From NCBI GenBank assembly GCA_026545225.1, contig CM048851.1, forward strand, positions 32,487,956 to 32,551,955: a stretch of DNA of 64,000 nucleotides, given 5' to 3'. Under the pieces are notes generated by a model. The model was not told the DNA's origin and made no database searches. It saw only the letters and a list, made by a program, of their open reading frames with translations. The stretch comes from Cornus controversa (Eukaryota > Streptophyta > Magnoliopsida > Cornales > Cornaceae). Positions within the stretch are counted from its first letter, which is position 1. Every line of letters starts with the position of its first letter. This document shows, one piece after another, positions 1-14,230 of the stretch. The translations under genes and the position numbers were made by a program.

Positions 1-1727
1 AGAGAGAAAATATTATTGTAATTTAATTAATGTTTTAAACTTAATTTAATAAATGACCCAAACTTTCCGTATTGTAGATAAATATTATTGTTACGTCTTA
101 TACAAACAAAAGATAGCGATGGAGTGGTGGTAAGAGTTCTAATTAATGTTGAAGTGTGTGCTCAAAGGATGAGGTTTGATTCTTCATAGCAACATATTAT
201 TTTAATAGCCCAACCATTAAAAAAAAAAATGTTAGCGGGGCGAGTATAGTAAGACTACTAATAACCCATTTTGAGTTTTTAACGGAAATGTTAACGGGGC
301 GGAGTAGGGTTTAGGCGAACCCGCCCTGTCAGAGCTATCAAAAGGATGTAATTAACTATTTTTGTGTAATTACGCTTCTATCCTTACAACATCACACAAA
401 TGAATGATTTTTGTGTAAACGTTGATCACACTGACTCTTAATGGTCATTAAAGAAAGAAAATACGGTGTTACAAAAATACAAACTTTAAGAAAGGTTAGT
501 GTAATTTTGCAAACAAGAGGAATGATCAATGTTACAAAAATAAAAATCTCAAAGGAGGTCAATGAAATTTTGCAAACAAGAGGGGAGGTAAGTGTATATT
601 AACGAAACCTCAAGGGAGGTTAGTTTAATTTACCTTTTTTAATTATACTACAAGGGCATTTTTGGCATTTTAGTTTTCAATTTAAAGAAATGTCTTTATT
701 TGCACAATTTCAAAAATGTAAGGAGGTAATTGAATTTCAAGAAAATTTTTGCACATTCTGTATATAATAGAGGGGCGTTTTTGCACTTTACCCTTACTGA
801 AAAAATATAATATGTTTTTTTCGTTGTTTATAGGTCATGTAATAAGACAAACAATTTGAGGTCATACAATCACAACTTTGTGAAACTAATATCGATAAGG
901 CACGACAGTTCGCATAGCATATACAAGATAAACATGTCACTAGATATGACAATTTAAGACACGACAGTTCGCATAGCATATACAAGATAAACATGTCACT
1001 AGATATGACAATTTAACCCATCTCAGAGAGAAACTATTTTGTCTCATCCCGTTTAAACCGGTTATGAAGGAGGGTAAATGGTTTTGGGACTGTTATGGGG
1101 TTAAGAGGAAAAAACTCGCGAAGTTGCGGGGCAAGAATAGGGATAGGCACACCCGCCCTGCCCTTTCACACTCCGTCCAGTCTCATTTATATTTTATATT
1201 TACTATATTATCCTTATATATATATATATGATTTATTAATTCAAATTTTATTAGCAGTACACATGTAAATTATTAAAGATCTTATCACATAAAAATATAA
1301 ATACTAAAAATAGTACAATTATAAAAGTAATCCATTAAAATAAAATTCTTAAAAAAATAATAAAATTTGTTTTATCCCGTTTACATCTCCTCCCGCCTCA
1401 TCACCTCGCCTAACAGTCAAATAATTGAAACGTGAGCTTGTTTCACCCGAAATTCATTCTTGTTGGGGGTTGAAATATGAGCCTGACTGTTGGATGGATG
1501 GTTCGTATAACAAGCATTGAAGACCTGCCTTGGGCCATGAGGACCATCCCTCTCTGAACGTGGAACATGAGGAAACAATGGCTCATTTATTGCTTCCATG
1601 TGGGGGTCCACCAACTTGACTAAAAAAACAAAAATGATTGTGTGTGTGAGGCGATCTATACTGCCGACGTGAATTGGTGCCAATGTGATAGTTTGTTTTG
1701 GTTTTACAATTCACATTGGATACCTTA
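1..1727. other. Gene-free flank with repeat fragments
   Basis: No credible coding region is visible. The stretch holds pieces of dispersed repeats. About 480-640 and about 680-795 resemble one arm each of fold-back/MULE-type MITEs: phrases such as gaggtaagtgta, and an end reading tttttgcactttaccctt. The same arm recurs inverted near 53046. GC-rich CCCGCCC phrases near 290-330 and 1110-1160 recall plant hAT-type MITEs, but I cannot define ends. Confidence 0.4.
901..1016. repeat. Perfect 59-bp tandem duplication
   Basis: The sequence starting cacgacagttcgcatagc at 901 recurs at 960. The two copies run through aatttaa with no visible mismatch apart from the junction. Such identity points to a recent duplication. 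Confidence 0.85.
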
Positions 1728-1745
1728 GGGGGCGTTTGGCAACCG
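1728..1745 (+). repeat. Left terminal inverted repeat of the Harbinger element
   Basis: GGGGGCGTTTGGCAACCG is preceded by the TTA target duplication at 1725-1727. The inner motif GTTTGGTAAC recurs near 1809 and, inverted, several times at the right end. Confidence 0.85.
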
Positions 1746-1777
1746 CTTTTGTTTTTGATTTTTTGTTTTTGCAAGAT

Positions 1778-1973
1778 CACTGTAGCACTACAGTGTTCCG
1801 CAATATGTTTGGTAACATATGTTTTGCTTCCAACAGTAGTCTTGTTACTTCAGATTTTCGGGCTCAAAGTCGAAACAAAAAAATGGTGTTTTTGGTTGTT
1901 TCAACACTGTAGCAAAAGCACTGTAGCGGAGATTAATAAACACTGTAGCGCTATATCAGATGGATACTGTAGC
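1778..1973 (+). repeat. Left subterminal CACTGTAGC motif cluster
   Basis: CACTGTAGC occurs at 1778, 1904, 1919 and 1941, with a variant TACTGTAGC at 1965. An inverted partial copy (ctacagtg) lies at about 1788. Repeated subterminal words are typical binding sites for the element's own Myb-like or transposase protein; binding here is inference. Confidence 0.6.
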
Positions 1974-2339
1974 AGAGTTTATATCCGAAAAGCCAAAAAT
2001 GTTTTTGCCCAACCCATTATCAACTCCAGAGCTCTATACAGAAGACGATTTGGGAGAACTCGATCTGCAGTCCCTACCGATCTCGAAAGCTGTCATTGTA
2101 ACGCCCGTTCACCATCCATTCACCTCTGCAAACTCATTCAGGTCTGTTCACCATCCATTTCGTTTTCTCTATCTTTAACTTTTCTTGATTTCTGGGTTTA
2201 GAGTTCCAATTATTCTATCACAAACGTAGATCAGAACCTATCTTTTGTGTCTTCTATGTAATAAATATTATAGATCTACCAATTTCACCTTTTGCTGTCA
2301 TCTGAAACCCTAGTTTCTCAAAAATCCTAATTTTCTTCT

Positions 2340-3050
2340 TTCCTAAATCGTAGATCTGATCATATATGTTGATATATTATACATTACCTTCAAATTTGAC
2401 CCATGTTTATTATTTTTTTTGTATTTTTCAAATTTTATTCTTTGCTAAACCGTAGATCCGATCATATATGTTGATTTATTATACAAAAATACATCAAATT
2501 TGACCCATTTTTATTATTTTTTTTTGTATTTTTCAAATTTTCTTGCTTGTTAAACCGTAGATCTGATCATATATGTTGATCTATTATACATTATGTTCAA
2601 ATTTGACCCATTTTCATTATTTTTTTTGTATTTTTCAAATTTTCTTCTTTGCTAAATCATAGATCTGATCATATATGTTGATATATTATACATTACCTTC
2701 AAATTTGACCCATGTTTATTATTTTTTTTGTATTTTTTAAATTTTATTCTTTGCTAAACCGTAGATCTGATCATATATGTTGATATATTATACATTATCT
2801 TCAAATTTGACCCTTTTTCATTATTATTTTTTGTATTTTTCAAATTTTCTTCTTTGCTAAACCGTAGATATGATCATATATGTTGATCTATTATACATTA
2901 TCTTCAAATTTGACCCATTTTCATTATTTTGTTTGTATTTTTCAAATTTTCTTCTTTGCTAAACTGTAGATTTGATCATATATGTTGATCTATTATACAT
3001 TATCTTCAAATTTGACCCATTTTTATTATGTTTTTTGTATTTTTCATGAA
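2340..3050 (+). repeat. About seven tandem copies of a 102-bp unit in the Harbinger 5' region
   Basis: The block with cgtagatctgatcatatatg, then ttcaaatttgaccca, then a T-run and tttttcaaatttt repeats with a period near 102 bp. Copies begin near 2350, 2453, 2556, 2657, 2759, 2862 and 2964. Copies differ at scattered bases, so the array is not brand new. It lies between the left end and ORF1, and could be a promoter/leader array or a protein-binding region. Confidence 0.85.
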
Positions 3051-3960
3051 GAAAAGACTCGTGACTCTCTGTTTTATTTTCGGTTTTCTTTCAACTTGAA
3101 CTTCAACACTGCTCCACTACGCTTCAGAGGTACGCATAGTGTTTATATTATTTACATAACATTTTGATAACATATAAAGCATTTTTTGAAAGTTTAATAC
3201 AATTTTTTAGTTTTATTTTGATCGTTGTTTATTTTTGTAAAATTATTATATTCATTGGTGCATTGTAATTCTGAATTAAGTTATGTTATGTCAAATCTCT
3301 CAGTTTAAAGAATAATAATTCGAGTTAATCTATTCATTTCATATAAAGCAAGTATGTATTTATCAGTGAAATTGTGAATTAGATATATTTTACATATGAA
3401 TCATGATTTAGACCCTCCTAGTTGAGAATATAACAAAAGTAAACTAAAAGTTTATTAGGATTCTTCATATACATTTTTTTTGTCTTCTTAAGGTGTTATT
3501 GGTATTCATGTTTACTATTTTATTATTATTATTTTTTAACAATGATGTATAGTTACTTTATATTTCTTAAGATTGAATTGTCATAATTAGAACTCTAAAC
3601 TTGGTCCTAGATATATTCTGTCATCTTATACATATGCATGAGGTATTTAGGTCAACTCTGTTAAACTAGTTATTTAGGTATTTTTTACTAGTTGACAATC
3701 CTCATTTGATATTTTTCCAAACTTTTTCAAAATATCATGTACATATAGGCTTTTCTCTTCAAATCAGACTATGTATATGTGTATATATATTATATGCAAT
3801 AGGATTCTAAATTGGCAAACTGTTACTGCACAAATGACTTACTCACCTATCATACTTCACCATGGTGGCTGAATTATTTCATTATATTATTTACTTCACT
3901 TCGGCTAGAACACAAGTACCATATTAATGTATTTTTTATTGGATGTGCGTTTGAAATTAG

Positions 3961-5049
3961 ATGGATATCAACTCCCAGAATATGTACGAATTTGCTGATG
4001 ACATAACTTTGAATGACACTGAGGAAGTAGGGGAGGTGACTGAGGATGGGAAAGTTCTATGGGATGATGCCCTTGAAGAGAAGTTTATATTATTGATGGA
4101 GGAAGAAGTGAGACTTGGTAATCGTACCACTTCAACTTTTTCCACCATTGGGTGGAGACATTTGGAGGAGGGGATGAAGGCTGAAACTGGTAGGGAATAC
4201 AAAAGACACCAACTTAGGAATAAGTTCAACTCTTTAAGGTCTTATCACAAAGATTTTAAAAAACTCTTACAAGAGACTGGGGTGGGATACAATCCTGAGA
4301 CTGGCATGGTTGTCGTAGAGGATGAGAGATGGGAGAGGTTGGTTAAGGTTAGTTATAAAATATTATTAAATAAATTTTTTTTCATTAAGTTAAATATTTA
4401 TTTATCTTACTGTTGTTTGGAGTTAACAACATATTAATATTAACATTATAACTTGTAGGTTTTTAAGAATGCAAAAAAGTTGAAAAGGAAGGGATGCAAA
4501 CATTATTACAAGTTGAATACAATATTTGGGGACACACATGCCACAGGTAACCTTGTTCATCCATCCACTAGAGCTCCCACATCCATTCCAGTGGTTCCAA
4601 ACACTGGTGGCTTGAACACCATGGATGACCTTTTGATTGAGGAGGTAGCTGAGGGGGGAGGTCGTGAGAGGAGTCTCTCACCACAACCTCGTCCTAGGAA
4701 AGTGCAGAAAGAAAGTTTTGCATCCACAATGTCTCAAGTTATGGCAACCATGACTGAGAACTCGAAGAGGAAAGCCGATGCCATAGAAAAGGTGGCTTTG
4801 GCAGCAGCTTCCTCTTCGACCCACATAAATGCATCTCACGATACACGTGAAGATGCTCTTTCTCCCTCCCAAAAAGAAAAGGAACTAGCACAGTGTGATT
4901 TATGCATTAGGATTTTAAACCAATTGCAGGGGGTTGATGATATCCATTATACTAAGGCCCTAGGGATGCTTCATGATGATGCATTGTGGAGGGATTTCTT
5001 TCTGCGCATTCCTGATGAGAGGAAGGTTGGATGGGTGATGAATCTTTGA
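3961..5049 (+). CDS. Harbinger ORF1: Myb/SANT-like DNA-binding protein
   Basis: This is the DNA-binding partner protein of a PIF/Harbinger transposon. In this superfamily ORF1 binds the element ends and helps the transposase act in the nucleus. Two exons fit: 3961-4347 (donor AAG|GTTAG) and 4459-5049 (acceptor TTGTAG|GTT), giving 325 residues in one frame. An acidic N-terminus (about 1-30) is followed by a Myb/SANT-like domain at about 33-150: LWDDALEEKF, then a WRHLEEGM helix, then YKRHQLRNKFNSLR and ERW. A basic patch (KKLKRKGCKHYYKL) follows. A low-complexity linker with a possible nuclear signal (RPRKVQK) comes next, and a C-terminal helical part ends WRDFFLRIPDERKVGWVMNL. The start is the first Met after a likely acceptor-like AG. 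It lies 390 bp upstream of the transposase on the same strand. No stop or frameshift interrupts it. Confidence 0.88.
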
Positions 5050-5438
5050 TAGTGATGTTCATGATATGGACTTGTTTTATATGACTATATTTCTTATGTT
5101 GTTTTTTCGAACTGATCTTTTTTTTATTTGGATGACTGTAATAACCTCTATAATTACTTCTACCTGGATGACTGTAATAACTTAATTTACTTTTTTAATT
5201 AGCTAGATGACTATATTAACTATATGTGTATCTGCTTATACTATTATATGACTTTAGAACTTATTGTGTGTGAAGTACTTTGATATGATTTAAAGCTTAT
5301 TGTGTTAAATACTTTGAAATGACTTTAGAACTTATTGTGTTATATATTTTAGTACCTATTGTGGGAAGTAGTTATATAATTAGTACTTAGTTGCTTACTA
5401 CTACAATTGTTGTTTTCTTTTAAATTAGGGTACTTTAA

Positions 5439-6832
5439 ATGGATTTATGGAGTCTCGTTCAGTTGTTAGATGATGATGATGATGAGGAAGAAGAGTGTAT
5501 AGTTATTACATGTATGATGCTTGAATACGAAAGACAGTTTTATTCCAAACGACCCTGTAGGACTTCAATGTTACAAGGTCAAGATTACATAGTTGAAGTA
5601 TTGAGCGGTAACGAGGATAGATGTTATGAAAATTTTAGGATGCACCCACCTGTATTCATTGCACTGTGTGAGCGATTGAAATCATTAGGTCTGGAACATT
5701 CAAGGTACTTAAGTGTACAAGAACAAGTAGCAATTTTCCTACTTATCATATCTCACAATGAAAGGATGAGGGTTGTCGCCGAAAGATTCCAGCATTCAAC
5801 ATGGACAATTTCTCAATACTTTCACATTGTCTTAAACAAAGTTTGTGAACTAGGCATGACAGTTATTGCTCCTCCAGATTTGAGTGTCACCCCTCCAGAA
5901 ATTCGATTCAATCCTAAGTTCTATCCATTCTTTAAGGTTAGTTGACAATCATTTACAGATTCTTTAGATCCCTATTATTCTCAGTAATTTAACAAGTCTT
6001 CATATGTCTTTATAGAATTGTATCGGAGCGATTGATGGAACCCATATACATGCACAAGTGCCAGCTGATATGCAAATTCCATATCGTGGCAGAAAACAAG
6101 ATACAACTCAAAATATCATGTGCGTGTGTTCCTTTGATATGCGGTTCACATATGTCCTAACGGGGTGGGAAGGGTCAGCAAATGATTCCAGAATTTTAAA
6201 TGAATGCTATAACAATCCCACACTTGGATTCCCACGAGCACCTACAGGTACTTATTATTTGGACAATACTATGACAATACATGTATTTTACAAAAATTAT
6301 TTGCATAATTATGCCATTGCTAAAAGGTATATTATAATTTACAGATAAGTTTTACTTGGTTGATTCTGGTTATGCCAACCAGCCAGGCTTCTTGGCCCCA
6401 TATCGTGGTCAACGATATCACATGCAAGAATATCGTAGGGGTAGGAGAGCACCTCGGGGTCGGGAAGAAGTTTTTAACCATAGGCATTCATCTTTGAGAA
6501 ATGTAATAGAGCGGTGTTTTGGTATGTTAAAGGGTCGATTTGCAATTATAAGAGAGATGCCTCCTATGAGCATGCGTGCTCAAAGACTCATTGTCATTGC
6601 TTGTTGCACGCTACACAATTTTCTTAGAATGCAGGGTCATACTGATAGAATTTTTCAGGAATTTGAACCCCAGAACATGGTACCTCCTGAATCAAGTTCG
6701 GAGGGTACAAGTCAAACTGGAACTGAACCTACTGTAAGTGTCAACATAACACAGAGTCAAGTACGACAAATGGATCGCGTTCGTGATACAATTGCTGACA
6801 GTATCTGGCAAACTGTGCGTAGACCATCATAA
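5439..6832 (+). CDS. PIF/Harbinger DDE transposase
   Basis: It cuts and rejoins the element ends at TWA targets (family knowledge, DDE superfamily, nuclease domain DDE_Tnp_4). Three exons fit with clean GT-AG borders: 5439-5936, 6016-6247 and 6345-6832, giving 405 residues, a normal family length. An N-terminal helix-turn-helix-like part (RYLSVQEQVAIFLLIISHNE ... ERFQHSTWTISQYFH) precedes the catalytic core. The core shows the first Asp in GAIDGTH, the second Asp in GWEGSANDSRIL, the conserved YLVDSGYA ... GFLAPYRG block, and the Glu in NVIERCFGMLKGRF. The second intron removes an in-frame alternative (GTYYLDNT) and restores KFYLVDSG across the join. No inactivating change is visible. The start Met has an acidic Asp/Glu-rich run just after it; a somewhat different N-terminus is possible. 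Confidence 0.92.
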
Positions 6833-7003
6833 ATTCATGGATGACTGTAATCTTTAACTTGTTGGATAACTGTACTAACTAATCTTGAACTTGTTGGATG
6901 ACTGTAGTAACTAATAACTAATAACTTATTAGTACTTGTAATAACTAATTAATTTTCATAACTCTTATTAGTACTTGTAACTATATGACATGCATATGCA
7001 GTA

Positions 7004-7433
7004 ATGTTCAAAGTAGAGGGTGAGGGACCACCATGTGCTTGTGGGAGAGGTCCCATGAATCTTTTTATGGCAAGGACTACCAAAAATTATGGGCGCTACT
7101 TCTATAGATGCCCAGCATGGCAGGTATTAAGCGTAATGATACGCAGTTTATTATTATGGTGTACCATATATATGCTTTCAATTCATAGTGATTTTACATG
7201 TGTAAATTTTGTAGTCACACGTTAATGCCTTTCAATGGTTGGATGCCTTGCACGAAGGTGCACATGTTGAGGGTAATGTGGATGATGACTTGGAGAATGT
7301 CATTGCAGTGATGAAAGCTGAACAAACTAGACACAAGTTATTTATAATTGCTGGTTGTGGTTGTGCTGCTATCAGTATAATATTCATGATGATTATTGTG
7401 TTCTTCTTGCTCATTGTTGTTCTTGAGAAATGA
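7004..7433 (+). CDS. GRF-type zinc finger protein with C-terminal membrane anchor (element cargo)
   Basis: Two exons, 7004-7123 (donor CAG|GTATT) and 7215-7433 (acceptor TTGTAG|TCA), encode 112 residues. Residues about 9-37 form a GRF zinc finger: CACG ... TTKNYGRYFYRCP, with the GR-FY-CP signature; known GRF fingers bind single-stranded nucleic acid. Residues about 41-85 are polar and helical (FQWLDALHEGAHVEGNVDDD). The last about 28 residues are a strong hydrophobic segment (IIAGCGCAAISIIFMMIIVF) ending LEK, i.e. a tail anchor. This GRF plus tail-anchor layout is common as small plant genes of unknown role. It lies 170 bp after the transposase in the same orientation, inside the element ends. 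It may be a regular third gene of this Harbinger lineage or a captured host gene. Confidence 0.75.
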
Positions 7434-8700
7434 TGTTTGGAAAATTTAGATTAAAACTTCGTTGCTTGTATTATATGCTAGTTTATGAACTTGTTGACTA
7501 TTGCATTATTTATTTCGTTGTATGATATGGAATAGAACTGTTTGTATAAATGTCCTTATGTCATATGTGACGACTTTGAGAATGGGGAACGGGAAAGTGG
7601 CAATGATTCAATTCCATTACTTTTGCATCATTTGAACTTTGAGATTTGGAGACTCTAACGAAATCTGAAAAAAGGTATATTTTAATTACTTTGACTTTTC
7701 ATTTCAAAAACTTTATACCTAATCTGAATAATCTAATATATATTATTGTGTCTGAATGCACTTGCTCTGTATGTGGGAGAATCTACAGACATTGATACGG
7801 ATAACAATAAAGTATGAAAAAAAGGTATATTTTCTTTTGTATATGTGGTTGATTTTGCTGATGATGAGTGTTATTCTTTAGTTTAGATAGTTACTTTGTT
7901 GCATTTTTAATATCACTTTACTCTTCTAATATCAAGCATTTTATTTTCTTTTTTTATTGGTGCTGCCTTTGATGAGTTTGGTGGGATTACACTAAGTTTG
8001 AAGTTGGTGGTTCTGAAGCAGGACTATTAAAAAGTCATGGGCCTCTCAATTTTCTCAAGGTCTCTCTCACTCTATCTCTCTCTATATATATATATAGAAT
8101 TTTAAATTTCAGAAGCTTATGCATTTATTTTTCTTATATAAATCTTTTCAATTATTGTTCTGGGTCCTAATGTGAATATGCTTAGTAACCATATAATTTA
8201 AATTCTTAACTGACCTGTTTTTAAAAGAACTTTAGAGTTGTTTATTTGGACAAGGCTGTATGGCAGTTTGTACAAAAGTGGAATATGTCATCTCAATAAG
8301 GTTCTGCCACTACAACTGATCTTTACTGTATTTTTGACTACCAGTAGCATGTAATATCAATTTTATCTTTGCTTCATAGCATTTCACATGTTGTGTGACA
8401 GTTAATTAGAAATAAGATCAGTACTAATCACTTGGTTGATCCATGTTGTCGGAAGCTGTGGTGATTTATTGATTTGTGCTAACCTGTAGAGCAAACTGAT
8501 TTTAGTTGCACTTCTATGGAGCTATTTAATGGGGCTAGGACTTTTCAGTTTGGAGAGACTATTCATGCAAGGAGATATCTTAAACATTTTTTTTTCTTTT
8601 TTTTTCTCAGGCCTGTCAGTCCTTTGAAACCATTATGCACAATTATTTGTTAAACATTGAAAGGTGGGTTGAAAAAAATATATATGTATATGTTTAAAAT
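7434..8700 (+). other. Non-coding or decayed cargo inside the Harbinger element
   Basis: No complete gene is visible. Short open stretches with exon-like texture occur at about 7560-7660, 7960-8060, 8225-8290 and 8490-8580 (for example VVYLDKAVWQFVQKWNM read at about 8232-8285). They cannot be joined confidently. They may be further exons of the same captured gene seen at 8711-9626. Confidence 0.35.
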
Positions 8701-8710
8701 TTATTTCAGT

Positions 8711-9626
8711 TGTAGAAAAGGTCAAGAACAATGTATTTTGAGCAAATTTCTGGTATCAAAATATAAGTGGGATATTTTGACATGGAATATTCAACAGGTG
8801 GATACTTCTGAAACTTGGGAGCCGGCAACTCTCATTTTGAGACAATCAAACTATCAAATTAAGGTCAATAGAACACAAGCTGTTTTAAAGGCAGAGAAAT
8901 TTTCGAAGGACTTGGTGGTATGCTCATGAATTCTTTTTTTGTTGCATTCCTTTAAAAAGAAAAGGAGAAACTCTGAATGCTTTGTTGAGATATATTGATT
9001 TAATAAGTTAGGAGGCAAAATAATTATGATTTAAAATGCAGTGATAATTTAGGAATTCATACAGGTCAACTCACACAGACTAGTCTAGAGCTTGATAGAA
9101 GCCATATTTATATGTTTAGTACTATACAATTGTATTCATGGTTTTGAATTGCCAAACAATTGTCACATTGTGGATGTTTTTTAATGTTTGAATTTTATCA
9201 TTATGAATATATCTACCTATTAACAGTTTTTTTTATCCATCCTTTCACGGGCAAGATCTCTAAAATTATCATTACACGTGATATAATTGAATCAGAATGA
9301 ATACCTATAGAGTTGGCCAATTAGTTTGACTAGTTAAAAAAGATAGTTTAATTATGAAACTCGTGACAGCCAACTTATTGCATTCATCACAGCTTATGTG
9401 GTTGAGTTGTTTATGGGATTCAATCCATTGACATACTCATAGGATTGCTAAACAATTGGTAAAAAATATTTCCAGAAAATGCCCCACCACCAAATACAAG
9501 AAATTTTGTATTGTTCTCTGATATGTTTTTCTTGCAGATCAAAATTCCTTCTGGGCTCTCATCTCAATTTGGATTAACATGTTCAGATGGTTCTTCGCAT
9601 CCTTTTAGCACAAATACAGATGTCCG
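8711..9626 (+). pseudogene. Spliced fragment of an unidentified captured host gene
   Basis: Three exon-like blocks join in one frame with good splice borders. The first runs from about 8711 (after tttcag) to 8799, ending CAACAG. It is contiguous with or spliced to the second, whose end reads TTGGTG|GTATGC near 8919. The third is 9538-9626 (acceptor CTTGCAG, donor CCG|GTAATA). The joined reading includes KYKWDILTWNIQQVDTSETW, TLILRQSNYQIKVNRTQAVL and IKIPSGLSSQFGLTCSDGSS. About 110 residues lack a stop, and codons look like a real gene. I do not recognise the family. There is no start, and it does not join in frame to the ATP-citrate lyase exons downstream. It is most likely transduplicated host sequence. 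Confidence 0.45.
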
Positions 9627-10339
9627 GTAATATATTGATTTCATGTATTTGTTTTTTAACATTTATTCTTGCGTATTATGTTGTTTGTTGACTAGCTGTG
9701 AAGTTAAACTTTCCCATTATCTCTGAAATTTAAATCTTGTGTTAGAGATCTATCAAGAACTTATTATCATCACTAGCAATACACTCAATGTATAAGAATG
9801 TGCATGTCCTCTGAAGAAATAAAAGAATTTTCTTTTATTGTGTTTGCCTTGTCCCCTTTATATGCCTTGATTGTGGGAGTACAGATGCAATACATTTACA
9901 AGTCCATTAGTTTTGTCAGTTGGAAAGAACAGAAACACGAAAATAAGTGCTGAAAAATATAGGAGGAAAAGGATTTTTCTCAATTTCATTTCTTAGCATT
10001 GGGGTAATTGCATGGTGTAGTAAAAGATCAGGTTGTCGAGCTCGATAATGCATTTTCAGTTTGAAGGCAAATGCCAAAAGGCCCAAAAGTTAATACTGTA
10101 CTAGGCCATCGCTCCCAACATATTTGACTAATGGGGACCTCACACAGGGAATGCAGCAAATGCAGAGTGTAATAATTAAGTTGCAGCAATCTGAAATAAG
10201 GAAAGAAAGAGGGTCCACTCAGACCAGAATTGCTCTAAATACTATCTTCGCCTAGATTTGTAAGAAATCTGGGAAAAGCGTGAGAAATAGTTATCGAAGT
10301 TATAACATACTGAAATTATATTGAAGAAAATTTTCTGGG

Positions 10340-10342
<3 letters not shown>

Positions 10343-10378
<36 letters not shown>
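10343..10378. repeat. (AT)n microsatellite
   Basis: About 18 AT units inside the Harbinger cargo, between the two captured-gene fragments. Confidence 0.9.
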
Positions 10379-10380
<2 letters not shown>

Positions 10381-10650
10381 AAAAAGACTTCTTACAGTAG
10401 ATAAATAATAGTAATGAACTAAGGGCAAAACTATTTGCTTATAGTGTTCCTTAAATTGGCTTAATGATGATATTCTCGGAAGTATAATCCTTAATGTTCA
10501 GTTTAGAGCCTTAAAATTTTATTAATGGTTGGGCAAGAGCCAAGAGGCTACATGTTTTCCAAATTAAAACAGTGTCCTTTTAAATTATATAAACTGCCAT
10601 TCAATAATTTGGTCTTTTTTTTTATATAATTTGCATTACTTATTCGACAG

Positions 10651-11678
10651 GAATCCAAGTTAAAAGCATCAAGAATGCACATCTATGTTCGAAGAGGTGG
10701 TCCCAACTATCAGATTGGTCTGGCAAAGATGCGTGCCTTGGGAGAGGAACTGGGAGTTCCCCTTGAGGTATGAGATAGCAGCCTATTTTCAGGATACTTT
10801 TAGTTGGTTTTAGGCATTTGATTATCTTGGGGCATTTGATGTCTTTAGCTTATGATAAACTAGAAGCACCTCTACCACTTACTACATGTGGAAAGCAACT
10901 ACTAGATTGCCACCTGCAATTCAGAAAATTTTGGGACCTTCTATCATTATATGAAAGTGTATCCAAAATAAAATTAAAAAATAGACGAGGTAGATTCTAT
11001 AGGGTAAACTCCATGCAACCCCAAAAAAAAAAATGAAAAAAGAATCATTAGATTGAAACTATATTGGGTGTTCAATTTATTATGCTCTTGTTTATATTGA
11101 GATTGAATGACTTACACCATTCAAATTAATATATATATATATATATATGCTATTGGACTTGAGTATCTGCATGAATTGTCAACTATATACATGTCTGTTT
11201 GTGTGTGTGTAAGAACATATATATCTATATGATATAGATTTAAAGGTTGAATGACTCACACTCATACATGCTAATATCTTATTAGATTTGGTTTTCTATC
11301 TACAAAGGTCTACTATAAGACTTCTCAGAATAGTCAAACTTGTAATCCAATCCTTTTCCTACCCAAATTTTAAAATACAAAATAACACACACGTACATAT
11401 ATATATGATTGAATGTTTTAAAAATTATATATGAATGCAGGCCACTGTATATAATTTTGATTGTTAATGTCACTTCTGTAGTTCTGTTTTCATATATGGT
11501 TTCTCTAAATCAGGCTTTCTCCTTCTGCATGTTACTACTGGAAAGCCTTTTTTAGTTCTTTAGATTGAACTTAATGTATTGTGTCATTTTTCTCTTCTGG
11601 TTGCAGGTTTATGGACCTGAGGCTACAATGACCAAAATTTGTGAGCAAGCCATTGATTGCGTCATGTCTGCAGCATAA
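10651..11678 (+). pseudogene. ACLA (fragment): Captured last two exons of ATP-citrate lyase subunit A
   Basis: Two exons match the C-terminus of plant ATP-citrate synthase alpha (A) subunit, the cytosolic enzyme that makes acetyl-CoA from citrate. Exon 10651-10767 (after CGACAG, donor GAG|GTATGA) reads [20 protein letters not shown] ... [17 protein letters not shown]. Exon 11607-11678 (after TTGCAG) reads [18 protein letters not shown], then VMSAA and a stop. Splice sites, frame and stop are intact, so capture looks fairly recent or under constraint. The preceding exons of the gene (about 360 residues, including the ATP-grasp part) are absent, and the sequence sits inside the Harbinger ends. 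It cannot make an active enzyme alone. Splicing from an upstream element exon could yield a chimeric transcript or small RNAs against the parent gene; that is inference. Confidence 0.85.
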
Positions 11679-12840
11679 TCTCGCCCTTTGTTCATATGTC
11701 TTTCGATGTGCTGAGAACGTAATGCTCGGCTTCCTTGATGGCACAAACTTAATAGTACTATTTTTACACTTTCCAAAGTTTTTATTTTTTCATTTTTTTA
11801 ATTTAAATTTTCTCAAATTTTAAACAAATTTCTGCAATACGGATGTCACAGTTGCACCATGCTCATTGACATTGTCAAGGCTTGTGAATTTTGATGACAG
11901 TACACTGATCCTTTGTGGTCTATTTCACAATTATGTAGTTCTTAAAATTGTTGGTAAACCAACTTGGCGTGATATGAAAGTAAATGTGTTTCTAATGAAT
12001 ACATAAAAGATAACTGATTTAAAATTTTAATCAGCAATTCAATTACTTGTAGCACTAGCTACTAGTTTACATTTAGAAATGTCCACTATTGCGTTGTTGC
12101 TAGCATTTGGTATTGAGCAAGATGGCCTTGAATATGCATAAATATTCATGCTGCCAATTGGACCTTATGTGTTAAATGCTTTATTATGCATTACATGGTC
12201 TGAGAGGGGCGTGGGTTGATTGATATGCACAAATCCATGCATTTGTTTGCCATGTTTGAATGGACATGAACTTCTCAGAACATTTTAATTTGATAATGGA
12301 ATATTTCTTCATTTCAAGTGATCAAAAACTCGGATGCAAATGAGTCGAGTTCAGTTATTACTCCCGTGCATCAAAACTCTTTCCTTTTCAGGGAATGCTC
12401 TAGGAGATTTTTCATATGAACTGATGGGAACGTATGAACGTTTATTATGATAATCAAATTTCACATAAAAAGCAAATACTATGGCTCACAAAAAGTTTTG
12501 GAAATTAAGGTCATAAATATACCAAAGGTATAGTAGCTGCTGATGCATATCTTTCACTTTAGAGTCTATACACGATTGTATTATGGTGACATCCACTTTA
12601 GAAATCATCCAAGTATTTTGGTTTTCTTTTTGAATTTTAGGATCTTCCAATGATAAGTGAAATTAAAAGAATTAAAATTCAAAAATTGCTTTAGAAAAAT
12701 ACATCATTTTTTAGTGTTAGAAAAAAAAAAAAAAGGCGTGTACAATTTTTTAAAAGTCATTACAATGACGATTATTAATCTAAAAATTAATCATATATAA
12801 AAGATTAAAGTAAATTTTAAAACAAAATTAAAAACATTCA
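11679..12840 (+). other. Non-coding right part of the Harbinger cargo
   Basis: No ORF with family features. The first part may be the captured 3' UTR and downstream DNA of the ATP-citrate lyase A gene. A poly-A run of about 15 lies near 12721-12735. Confidence 0.4.
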
Positions 12841-13092
12841 TTACCAAACATGTTTTTTATTTTTGTTACCAAAATTTTGGCAACATTTAGAGTTACCAAA
12901 CATGTTTTCACTGTTTTGCTTTCAAAAATTTTGCAACAATTTGATGTTACCAAACATGTTTTCATGTTTTTGTTTTCGAATTTCAAACAACAAATTTTAC
13001 GTTACCAAACACGTTTCCAATCACTATTAAAAACACAACACAACAAAAACATTGTTTCTGTTTTGGATAAAATCAAAAGCATAAAACGTTTT
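12841..13092 (+). repeat. Right subterminal GTTACCAAACATG repeat array
   Basis: Units starting TTACCAAACATGTTTT recur near 12841, 12893 and 12947, with a diverged TTACCAAACACGTTTCC near 13002. The period is about 53-55 bp. A last TTACCAAACGG is part of the terminal repeat itself. The inverse word (GTTTGGTAACATATG) lies near the left end at 1809. The array is well suited as a protein-binding site for transposition. Confidence 0.75.
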
Positions 13093-13110
13093 CGGTTACC
13101 AAACGGCCCC
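13093..13110 (-). repeat. Right terminal inverted repeat of the Harbinger element
   Basis: On the minus strand it reads GGGGCCGTTTGGTAACCG. It is followed on the plus strand by the TTA target duplication at 13111-13113. Confidence 0.85.
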
Positions 13111-13197
13111 TTAGAGAGGCGTGTAAATTAAACAAGGAAATAAAAGGTCCGATTATATTACAAATTTATAAATTTACAAATTCACCCTTTTAAATAT

Positions 13198-13841
13198 GGG
13201 ATAATTACATTTACCTCCCTTCTAATTTGGTTTTATAACACTTACCTCTCCTGTGTTTTGGAATATAACACTTACCCCCTCTAGTTTGCACATTGGTAAC
13301 AAATACCCCCTTTTGTCAATCAAACTAACGGTTATTGCTAATATCATCAAAATTTAATCTTAAAAGGACAATTATACACTCAAAAATGTTGCAACTGAAG
13401 TTAGCGGGTCTCGATTTCAATGACAGCTCCGACATTGGGATAGTAGTAGCTAGTGGTTTGGTCGGAGCTGGGTCTTCTCAGCAATGGGATGGCATTGGGA
13501 TGGTAGTGGCTAGTGGTTTGGCTAGAGCTGGGTCTTCTCGGCAGTGGTTTCAATGGTGATTGTTGATGGTGCAGGTGGTGGGTGCTGACTCTTCTGGAGG
13601 TGATGTTGCTATGGTTGAAGGTCCGAAGTGGGTCTGCTCAAAATGGTGGCTCATAGTGGGGTATAATTGTCTTTTTAAGATTAAATTTTGATGATATTAG
13701 CAATAACCGTTAGTTTGATTGACAAAAGGGGGTATTTGTTACCAATGTGCAAACTAGAAGGGGGTAAGTGTTATATTCCAAAACACAGGGGAGGTAAGTG
13801 TTATAAAACCAAACTAAAAGGGAGGTAAGTGTAATTATCCC
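13198..13841. mobile_element. MULE-type MITE with long inverted arms and perfect 9-bp duplication
   Basis: Arms of about 180 bp (13198-13376 and 13657-13841) are near-perfect inverted copies: gggataattacatttacctc at the left, gaggtaagtgtaattatccc at the right. The 9-bp word tttaaatat lies directly outside both ends (13189-13197 and 13842-13850), the length expected for Mutator-like elements. The middle carries no transposase, so it is non-autonomous. It sits about 85 bp from the Harbinger right end. Confidence 0.85.
13433..13548. repeat. 60-bp tandem duplication inside the MULE-type MITE
   Basis: The unit starting cattgggatagtag at 13433 recurs at 13493 (cattgggatggtag) with a few substitutions. 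The GC-richer middle of the MITE (13377-13656) may be captured DNA; I cannot name a source. Confidence 0.7.
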
Positions 13842-14230
13842 TTTAAATATAACCCTTAAAAATCCTACCCTAATCTCCACAACTCAATCGTTCAGATCAA
13901 CCATTTCCCTTTAGTCGTACACCCTTACCCATCACCCTCACTGTCAGTCTCGCCAATTACCGTAAGCTTTCTCGACCACTGTTGCTGACCAGTGAGTTTT
14001 TTAACTTGATTGTGGAAGTGCAAACCTTCAAGAGATTTAAATGATGATTATAAATCCAGTGTAATCAAATATGTGGTAGTTTTTTAAACTCACAAACGAC
14101 GTTAACGGTCTTAACGACAAGAGTGTGCTTATCCACTTTTAAAATTACAGCATTTATTTATTAAAAAAATTATATGAAAATTTTATTGTAAAATTGTTTT
14201 TATAGATCTAGAGTGAAAGAGATGGGGGTA

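Follow-up and report, generated by a model that had tools for sequence, protein, structure and literature searches.

Can a single plant transposon of the PIF/Harbinger superfamily carry both its own transposition genes and pieces of host genes, and so copy those pieces around the genome by itself? This question was raised by a 64,000-nucleotide stretch of the Cornus controversa genome (GenBank assembly GCA_026545225.1, contig CM048851.1, positions 32,487,956 to 32,551,955; hereafter the window, on contig C7), in which a first-pass annotation made from the letters alone had proposed one gene-carrying element at positions 1728-13110. We identified this interval as a single PIF/Harbinger element of 11,383 bp. 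It is very probably an autonomous-type DNA transposon that serially picked up host gene DNA, and it probably needs no outside help to spread copies of host gene pieces through the genome. We also lean towards a broader interpretation, in which the element actively and self-sufficiently gathers host genes, fragment by fragment, through template switching during gap repair, and belongs to a PIF/Harbinger lineage with three genes: ORF1 (open reading frame 1), the transposase, and a small GRF-zinc-finger/membrane-helix protein kept by selection for transposition or anti-silencing.

Limits, copies and movement of the element

The ends of the element and the repeats near them are as follows; coordinates are positions in the window.

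1725..1727, no strand: left target-site duplication (TSD), TTA, read from the sequence; the empty site has a single TTA
1728..1745, plus strand: left terminal inverted repeat (TIR), 16/18 to the right end
2329..3046, plus strand: seven 102-bp tandem repeats upstream of ORF1, from repeat analysis
12343..13110, no strand: family-wide right end, with the TIR-core motif GTTTGGTAAC at 12892, 12946, 13001 and 13095 (minus strand)
13093..13110, minus strand: right TIR, matching the left end
13111..13113, no strand: right TSD, TTA, read from the sequence

The left 18-mer GGGGGCGTTTGGCAACCG (1728-1745) and the reverse-complemented right 18-mer GGGGCCGTTTGGTAACCG (13093-13110) agree at 16 of 18 bases. 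A scan of both strands of the 64-kb window, allowing up to four substitutions to either 18-mer, returned no place beyond these two ends; the matching ends and the TTA on both sides, as originally described, were thereby confirmed. Using blastn, we searched the same genome (772 Mb, 61 contigs) for other copies with identical ends, a search that the first-pass annotation had suggested, and found three, giving four full-length copies in all: two on C7 (including that of the window), one on C2 and one on C3.

C2:60,780,309-60,768,927: 100.000% identity to the window element; co-terminal; TSD TTA
C7:55,054,514-55,065,894: 99.956% identity to the window element; co-terminal; TSD TAA
C3:67,609,127-67,620,493: 99.798% identity to the window element; co-terminal; TSD TTA

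The C2 copy has 0 differences from the window element over 11,383 bp, and the second C7 copy (at 55.05 Mb) has 0 substitutions and one AT step in an AT repeat at 10343. The C3 copy has three substitutions (1941, 2738 and 12144) plus length changes in two AT stretches. The left 323 bases agree fully at three of the four loci and differ by a single base at C3; the right 270 bases are identical at all four. The flanks of different copies share no blastn similarity (~1 kb on the left and 2 kb on the right were compared), and we therefore rejected segmental duplication as their origin. Given a substitution rate of 7e-9 per site per year, the absence of differences between the window and C2 copies places a 95% upper bound of ~19,000 years on their split, or ~130,000 years at an alternative rate of 1e-9. 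By these comparisons, the window element has moved recently.

Two further places on C7 represent the target site with no element inside. Joining the window flanks through one TTA produced a query that is spanned in the genome search by C7:32419440 (91%) and C7:32353762 (93%), the other matches being the two flanks themselves. The two targets, 70 and 136 kb from the window insertion, read GGATACC-TTA-GAGAGGCGTG apart from a single difference in one of them. They are empty versions of a locally repeated target, and they supply, within the same genome, empty TTA sites of the kind that had been proposed as a check in relatives. Approximately 200 bp around the target site recur on C7 every ~66-70 kb, and the transposon is present in the window's copy only. 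Short TIRs and a 3-bp TTA/TAA TSD, both features of PIF/Harbinger, are thus documented in four copies and by an empty site. Because four copies are co-terminal, each with its own TSD, and two empty target sites exist, the interval is one element, as had been proposed.

Searches with the two ends point to a larger family. We found at least 40 matches to the left 323 bases (40 of 55 candidates scored) and at least 41 to the right 270 bases (40 of 730 candidates scored), and both counts are lower bounds for the family. At C8:17660271-17660543, a left end begins three bases after a family right end, which could reflect a tandem pair of elements. In the relative at C5:10411, the alignment jumps from 2430 to 2945, which corresponds to about five fewer 102-bp repeats than in the window element. 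Just to the right of the insertion, window positions 13188-13842 form a MITE-like (miniature inverted-repeat transposable element) stretch of 0.65 kb with long inverted arms (103 nt 98% complementary and 83 nt 95% complementary), which has a 94% match in locus L028.

Three genes of the element

The element has three genes upstream of its cargo.

3961..5049, plus strand: ORF1, Myb/SANT-like, 325 aa; modelled exons 3961-4347 and 4459-5049; open; PF12776, 7e-18
5439..6835, plus strand: DDE transposase, 405 aa; modelled exons 5439-5936, 6016-6247 and 6345-6835; open; PF13359, 5.2e-27
7004..7433, plus strand: GRF zinc finger plus C-terminal hydrophobic helix, 112 aa; modelled exons 7004-7123 and 7215-7433; open; PF06839, 4e-8

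A Myb/SANT ORF1 and a DDE_Tnp_4-type transposase are features of PIF/Harbinger, and the Pfam matches identify both here. Across the four copies, not a single letter differs in the modelled coding exons of the three genes; based on the modelled splice sites, the element has the open genes for its own transposition that an autonomous element should have. The first-pass annotation was therefore right that ORF1 and the transposase are open and retained, but its description of "both of its own genes" falls one short, as the segment at 7004-7433 is a third.

In all nine close relatives that we examined, the transposase contains at least one stop codon (five of the nine were covered in part). Compared with close relatives, the ratio of nonsynonymous to synonymous substitution rates (dN/dS) is 0.34-0.73 for the transposase and 0.47-1.06 for ORF1 (4 relatives). 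A genome search with part of exon 3 of the transposase had 681 candidates, of which 150 were scored and listed; searches of the transposase against plasmids and the PDB gave nothing useful.

The GRF gene has at least 210 matches genome-wide in a protein search, many with the same two-exon layout. The adjacency figures that follow are among the matches listed. A listed transposase lies upstream, on the same strand, at 52 of the 92 GRF exon-2 loci, where 0.05 would be the chance expectation; no GRF locus sits within 6 kb of a listed transposase in a different arrangement. In 50 of these 52, the distance from the matched transposase stretch to the start of the GRF exon is 501-609 bp (the outliers are 370 and 1313 bp). 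Linked loci make up 28/33 of those with ≥70% identity and 24/59 of those below 60%. GRF exon-1 matches were counted apart, and 9/12 have a listed transposase upstream, two of the nine at loci already counted. Conversely, a GRF gene is listed downstream of 59 of the 150 listed transposases and not of the other 91; among the 70 best-scoring transposases, 28 have no listed GRF gene downstream, including ranks 22-31 throughout. Because these figures cover the matches listed, such transposases cannot be called GRF-free, although some transposase lineages may lack the gene.

Set against eight GRF genes from a divergent clade, the window GRF gene gave dN/dS of 0.24-0.30 at synonymous divergence (dS) of 0.88-1.14; as the eight resemble one another closely, they amount to a single deep comparison. 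The same codon comparison gave 0.95 for a close relative and 0.12-2.46 for five pairs drawn from the divergent clade, all of these values being based on few changes. Within the close family, values of 0.50-2.14 are uninformative. The codon comparison with the divergent clade used nine of 14 fetched divergent loci and gives 15 of 45 possible pairs; L054, L061 and L066 (no full frame) were left out, as were L062 and L063, which are open (109 aa) only with another splice donor. The deep comparison within this genome suggests purifying selection on the GRF gene. Most likely, the GRF finger and membrane helix belong to a selected third gene of a PIF/Harbinger lineage, machinery rather than cargo. 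GRF fingers of other proteins bind single-stranded DNA. By analogy, it is tempting to speculate that the element's protein might tether transposition intermediates to a membrane or protect the element against its host.

A search of 5.8 billion proteins with the GRF protein returned four candidates, none of them significant. Among open-licence PMC papers (a scope that excludes Repbase and subscription papers), we found no description of a third, GRF-encoding gene in Harbinger elements. In the relevant text of PMC3212995, the "third open reading frame" is a retrotransposon env rather than a Harbinger gene. The part of PMC10359422 on domains expanded in Asteraceae lists GRF-type fingers beside transposon domains and draws no link to Harbinger there.

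Captured host gene DNA and suggested order of capture

Downstream of the GRF gene, the element holds ~4.3 kb of cargo (~7998-12343), a mosaic of HMG-CoA synthase (HMGS), DUF7046 and ATP-citrate lyase alpha (ACLA) gene DNA with introns kept.

7998..8095, plus strand: cargo start, from comparison with relatives
8096..8527, plus strand: internally deleted HMGS gene DNA with introns and a degenerate exon part; matches two pieces of C3:60091478-60092311 at 90%
8551..10407, plus strand: DUF7046-gene DNA; exons 8798-8917 and 9538-9626 plus introns; 96% to C7:50784258-50786098; PF23080, 2.4e-9
10410..11050, plus strand: ACLA gene DNA; exon 10651-10767; 92-94% to the C9 gene L052; PF16114
11474..11990, plus strand: ACLA last exon (11607-11678) plus downstream DNA; 91-95% to L052; PDB 6hxi for the two exons joined
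11991..12342, no strand: stretch common to some relatives, from comparison with relatives

These limits replace the interval 7434-12840 that had been given for the cargo, since family-wide element DNA extends up to ~7998 and resumes at ~12343. The claim that host-derived exons lie inside was upheld, with gene DNA matched elsewhere in the genome on C3 (HMGS), C7 (the DUF7046 locus) and C9 (ACLA), and captured host coding DNA between TIRs is a feature of Pack-TYPE elements. The retained introns indicate that the pieces came from genomic DNA and not from mRNA. The exon at C3:60091478-60092311 reads as HMGS (PF01154, 1.2e-8; PDB 2f82, 4e-17), and the window's own 20-residue remnant has no Pfam match. 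Peptides from another frame of 8000-8300 lacked a Pfam match as well, and the HMGS identification from the C3 locus stands in their place. Approximately 0.8 kb with three exons of the C9 ACLA gene is absent inside the ACLA part of the cargo. No source of 7998-8095 or 11991-12342 was found.

All identified cargo pieces have the same orientation as the transposase. A long chimeric cargo protein was rejected, given that splicing DUF7046 exon 2 to the ACLA exon is out of frame and meets a stop after four codons; the two ACLA exons alone form an open reading. Our splice and frame reading of the cargo exons yielded no evidence for a new cargo-encoded protein. Compared with window positions 11650-11760, L052 (G000:C9:47246001-47249600) is missing ~70 bp at its stop codon, so that its C-terminus is MSQT and that of the cargo MSAA; the transposon may keep an older ACLA state or derive from another gene copy. 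Eleven places in C2:51.2-54.0 Mb contain ACLA exon fragments with nearly equal scores, perhaps in another amplified carrier.

As had been suggested, we looked for copies with and without the cargo. The relative at C4:58576 passes from 7998 to 12343 through 1.17 kb of other DNA, with no window cargo in the stretch examined, which implies a cargo-free core of ~7.0 kb. The relative at C5:10411 has the HMGS part and no match to the ACLA or DUF7046 loci; in the relative at C1:33784, HMGS-region DNA is joined to ACLA DNA without DUF7046; and the window group has all three pieces. This series suggests that HMGS was captured first, then ACLA, then DUF7046. At the HMGS/ACLA boundary are 1.84 kb of DUF7046 DNA in the window element versus 0.73 kb in C1:33784. 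An 11-bp word, GACTATTCATG, is common to the resident and incoming DNA at the left DUF7046 junction, and two bases (AT) at the right junction come from neither. This junction pattern would fit template switching during gap repair. In a subgroup (c2_25631, L043, L044 and L045), other pieces of the same C7 DUF7046 locus are joined at 8105. L015 groups with L043, L044 and L045, a sister subgroup with other C7 DUF7046 pieces at window position 8105.

Autonomy, rival explanations and known systems

In the mechanism we propose, the element's own ORF1 and transposase proteins would cut it out and paste it at TTA, and its copy number would rise on repair of the donor gap or during host replication. 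Gap repair would at times switch template at short homologies and then resume in the element, replacing the DNA between, and gene pieces would enter by this route. Because the cargo lies in sense orientation downstream of the GRF gene, read-through transcripts could include the captured pieces. Another possible route is aberrant excision of tandem elements, which a 2026 review of gene capture (PMC13317346) describes, in the part available, for tandem Pack-CACTA elements. We infer that its own transposase moved the element.

Several points weigh against this account. Stop-free exon-3 frames occur at high identity elsewhere in the genome (e.g., C2:70217190, 94%), and another intact transposase could have acted in trans. 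Exon ends are modelled. A genome search for PF23080 listed five matches, all of them at C8:32.27-32.29 Mb or C6:44.67 Mb. As the C7 DUF7046 locus, although the nearest sequence to the cargo piece, is missing from that list, the element may have sampled another gene, of which this locus would be a further copy. The cargo and the C9 ACLA gene diverge by 5-9%, and ~70 bp of the cargo have no counterpart in that gene, so a different copy could be the source. The capture order rests on few relatives, and a single simple capture history does not explain the subgroup joined at 8105.

We weighed three alternatives. That the ends come from two different Harbingers with ordinary DNA between them, the finding named at the outset as one that would overturn the proposal, is extremely improbable: the left and right subterminal regions do differ in sequence, and some left-end matches have no right-end match nearby (among the matches listed), but four co-terminal copies with their own TSDs and two empty sites are what this genome contains. 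The other such finding named there, cargo that proves to be ordinary unique DNA at this locus, was likewise not seen within this genome. A less remote, though still unlikely, explanation is that the four 11.4-kb copies are non-autonomous in practice, with another family member providing transposase in trans and their own genes silent or unneeded. The size of the family would allow it, as both ends have at least 40 matches and some frames among the scored exon-3 candidates are open. Against it, all four copies keep three open genes with identical coding exons, and every close relative examined has stop codons in the part of the transposase covered.

Slightly less probable again is a reading of the GRF gene not as machinery but as cargo that was captured, or as a gene that hitchhikes in a single lineage of elements. 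GRF zinc fingers also occur in cellular proteins. Many listed transposases, including high-ranking ones, have no listed GRF gene, and dN/dS within the close family carries no information on selection. An autonomous PIF was described with two ORFs in the text seen of PMC6327408. The fixed position downstream of the transposase, at nearly constant spacing and far above chance expectation, and the low dN/dS at dS ~1 argue instead for a working part of the element.

With near-identical copies that have open genes and cargo, self-driven transduplication becomes directly testable, and the relatives in this genome that carry part of the cargo resemble intermediate stages. A selected third gene with a membrane helix would bring into this well-known superfamily of plant transposons a component that lacks an explanation. 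Surveys that set transposase-bearing elements apart as "autonomous" will pass over elements of this kind. Based on the portion of PMC8903248 describing packFinder, an element with a transposase match is filed in this way, and the class may therefore look rarer than it is.

The closest known system is grapevine Pifvine-3 (Benjak et al. 2008, PMC2528002), which, in the text seen on these elements, holds ORF1, transposase and transduplicated exons plus introns, sometimes common to several copies. The window element is like it in holding ORF1, transposase, and host exons and introns. The statement that machinery and cargo together are rarer is fair, but the class of PIF elements with both genes and transduplicated exons has been known since that 2008 publication. 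According to the same text, Pifvine-3 cargo lies in the 5' region and spans up to 3.5 kb, whereas the cargo here takes up ~4.3 kb on the 3' side of the genes, arranged as ordered pieces; that text mentions no third gene, and the window element has one.

Pack-TYPE PIF elements of rice and maize (Gisby and Catoni 2022, PMC8903248) resemble the window element in their PIF ends, mostly TTA/TAA TSDs and captured coding DNA. They are defined in the portion seen as non-autonomous, without transposase, and a transposase match moves an element to the "autonomous" class. Since the window element has an open transposase, identical in four copies, the original label "Pack-type" holds for the captured host coding DNA, in the sense of transduplication, and not for the non-autonomous part of the definition. 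PePIF1 of Phalaenopsis, as described in the available text of PMC6327408, has a similar two-exon Myb/SANT ORF1, three-exon transposase, GGG...GTTTGG TIR and TTA TSD, but it has two genes in 5,053 bp compared with three in 11,383 bp here. ULP1-carrying MULE and CACTA elements (KAONASHI and others, according to the part seen of PMC2528002) likewise combine transposase and host-derived sequence in one element; they belong to other superfamilies and carry a ULP protease domain, whereas the cargo here is a mosaic of gene pieces. What is new in the window element, relative to these systems, is the three-gene lineage, the recent movement and the stepwise capture.

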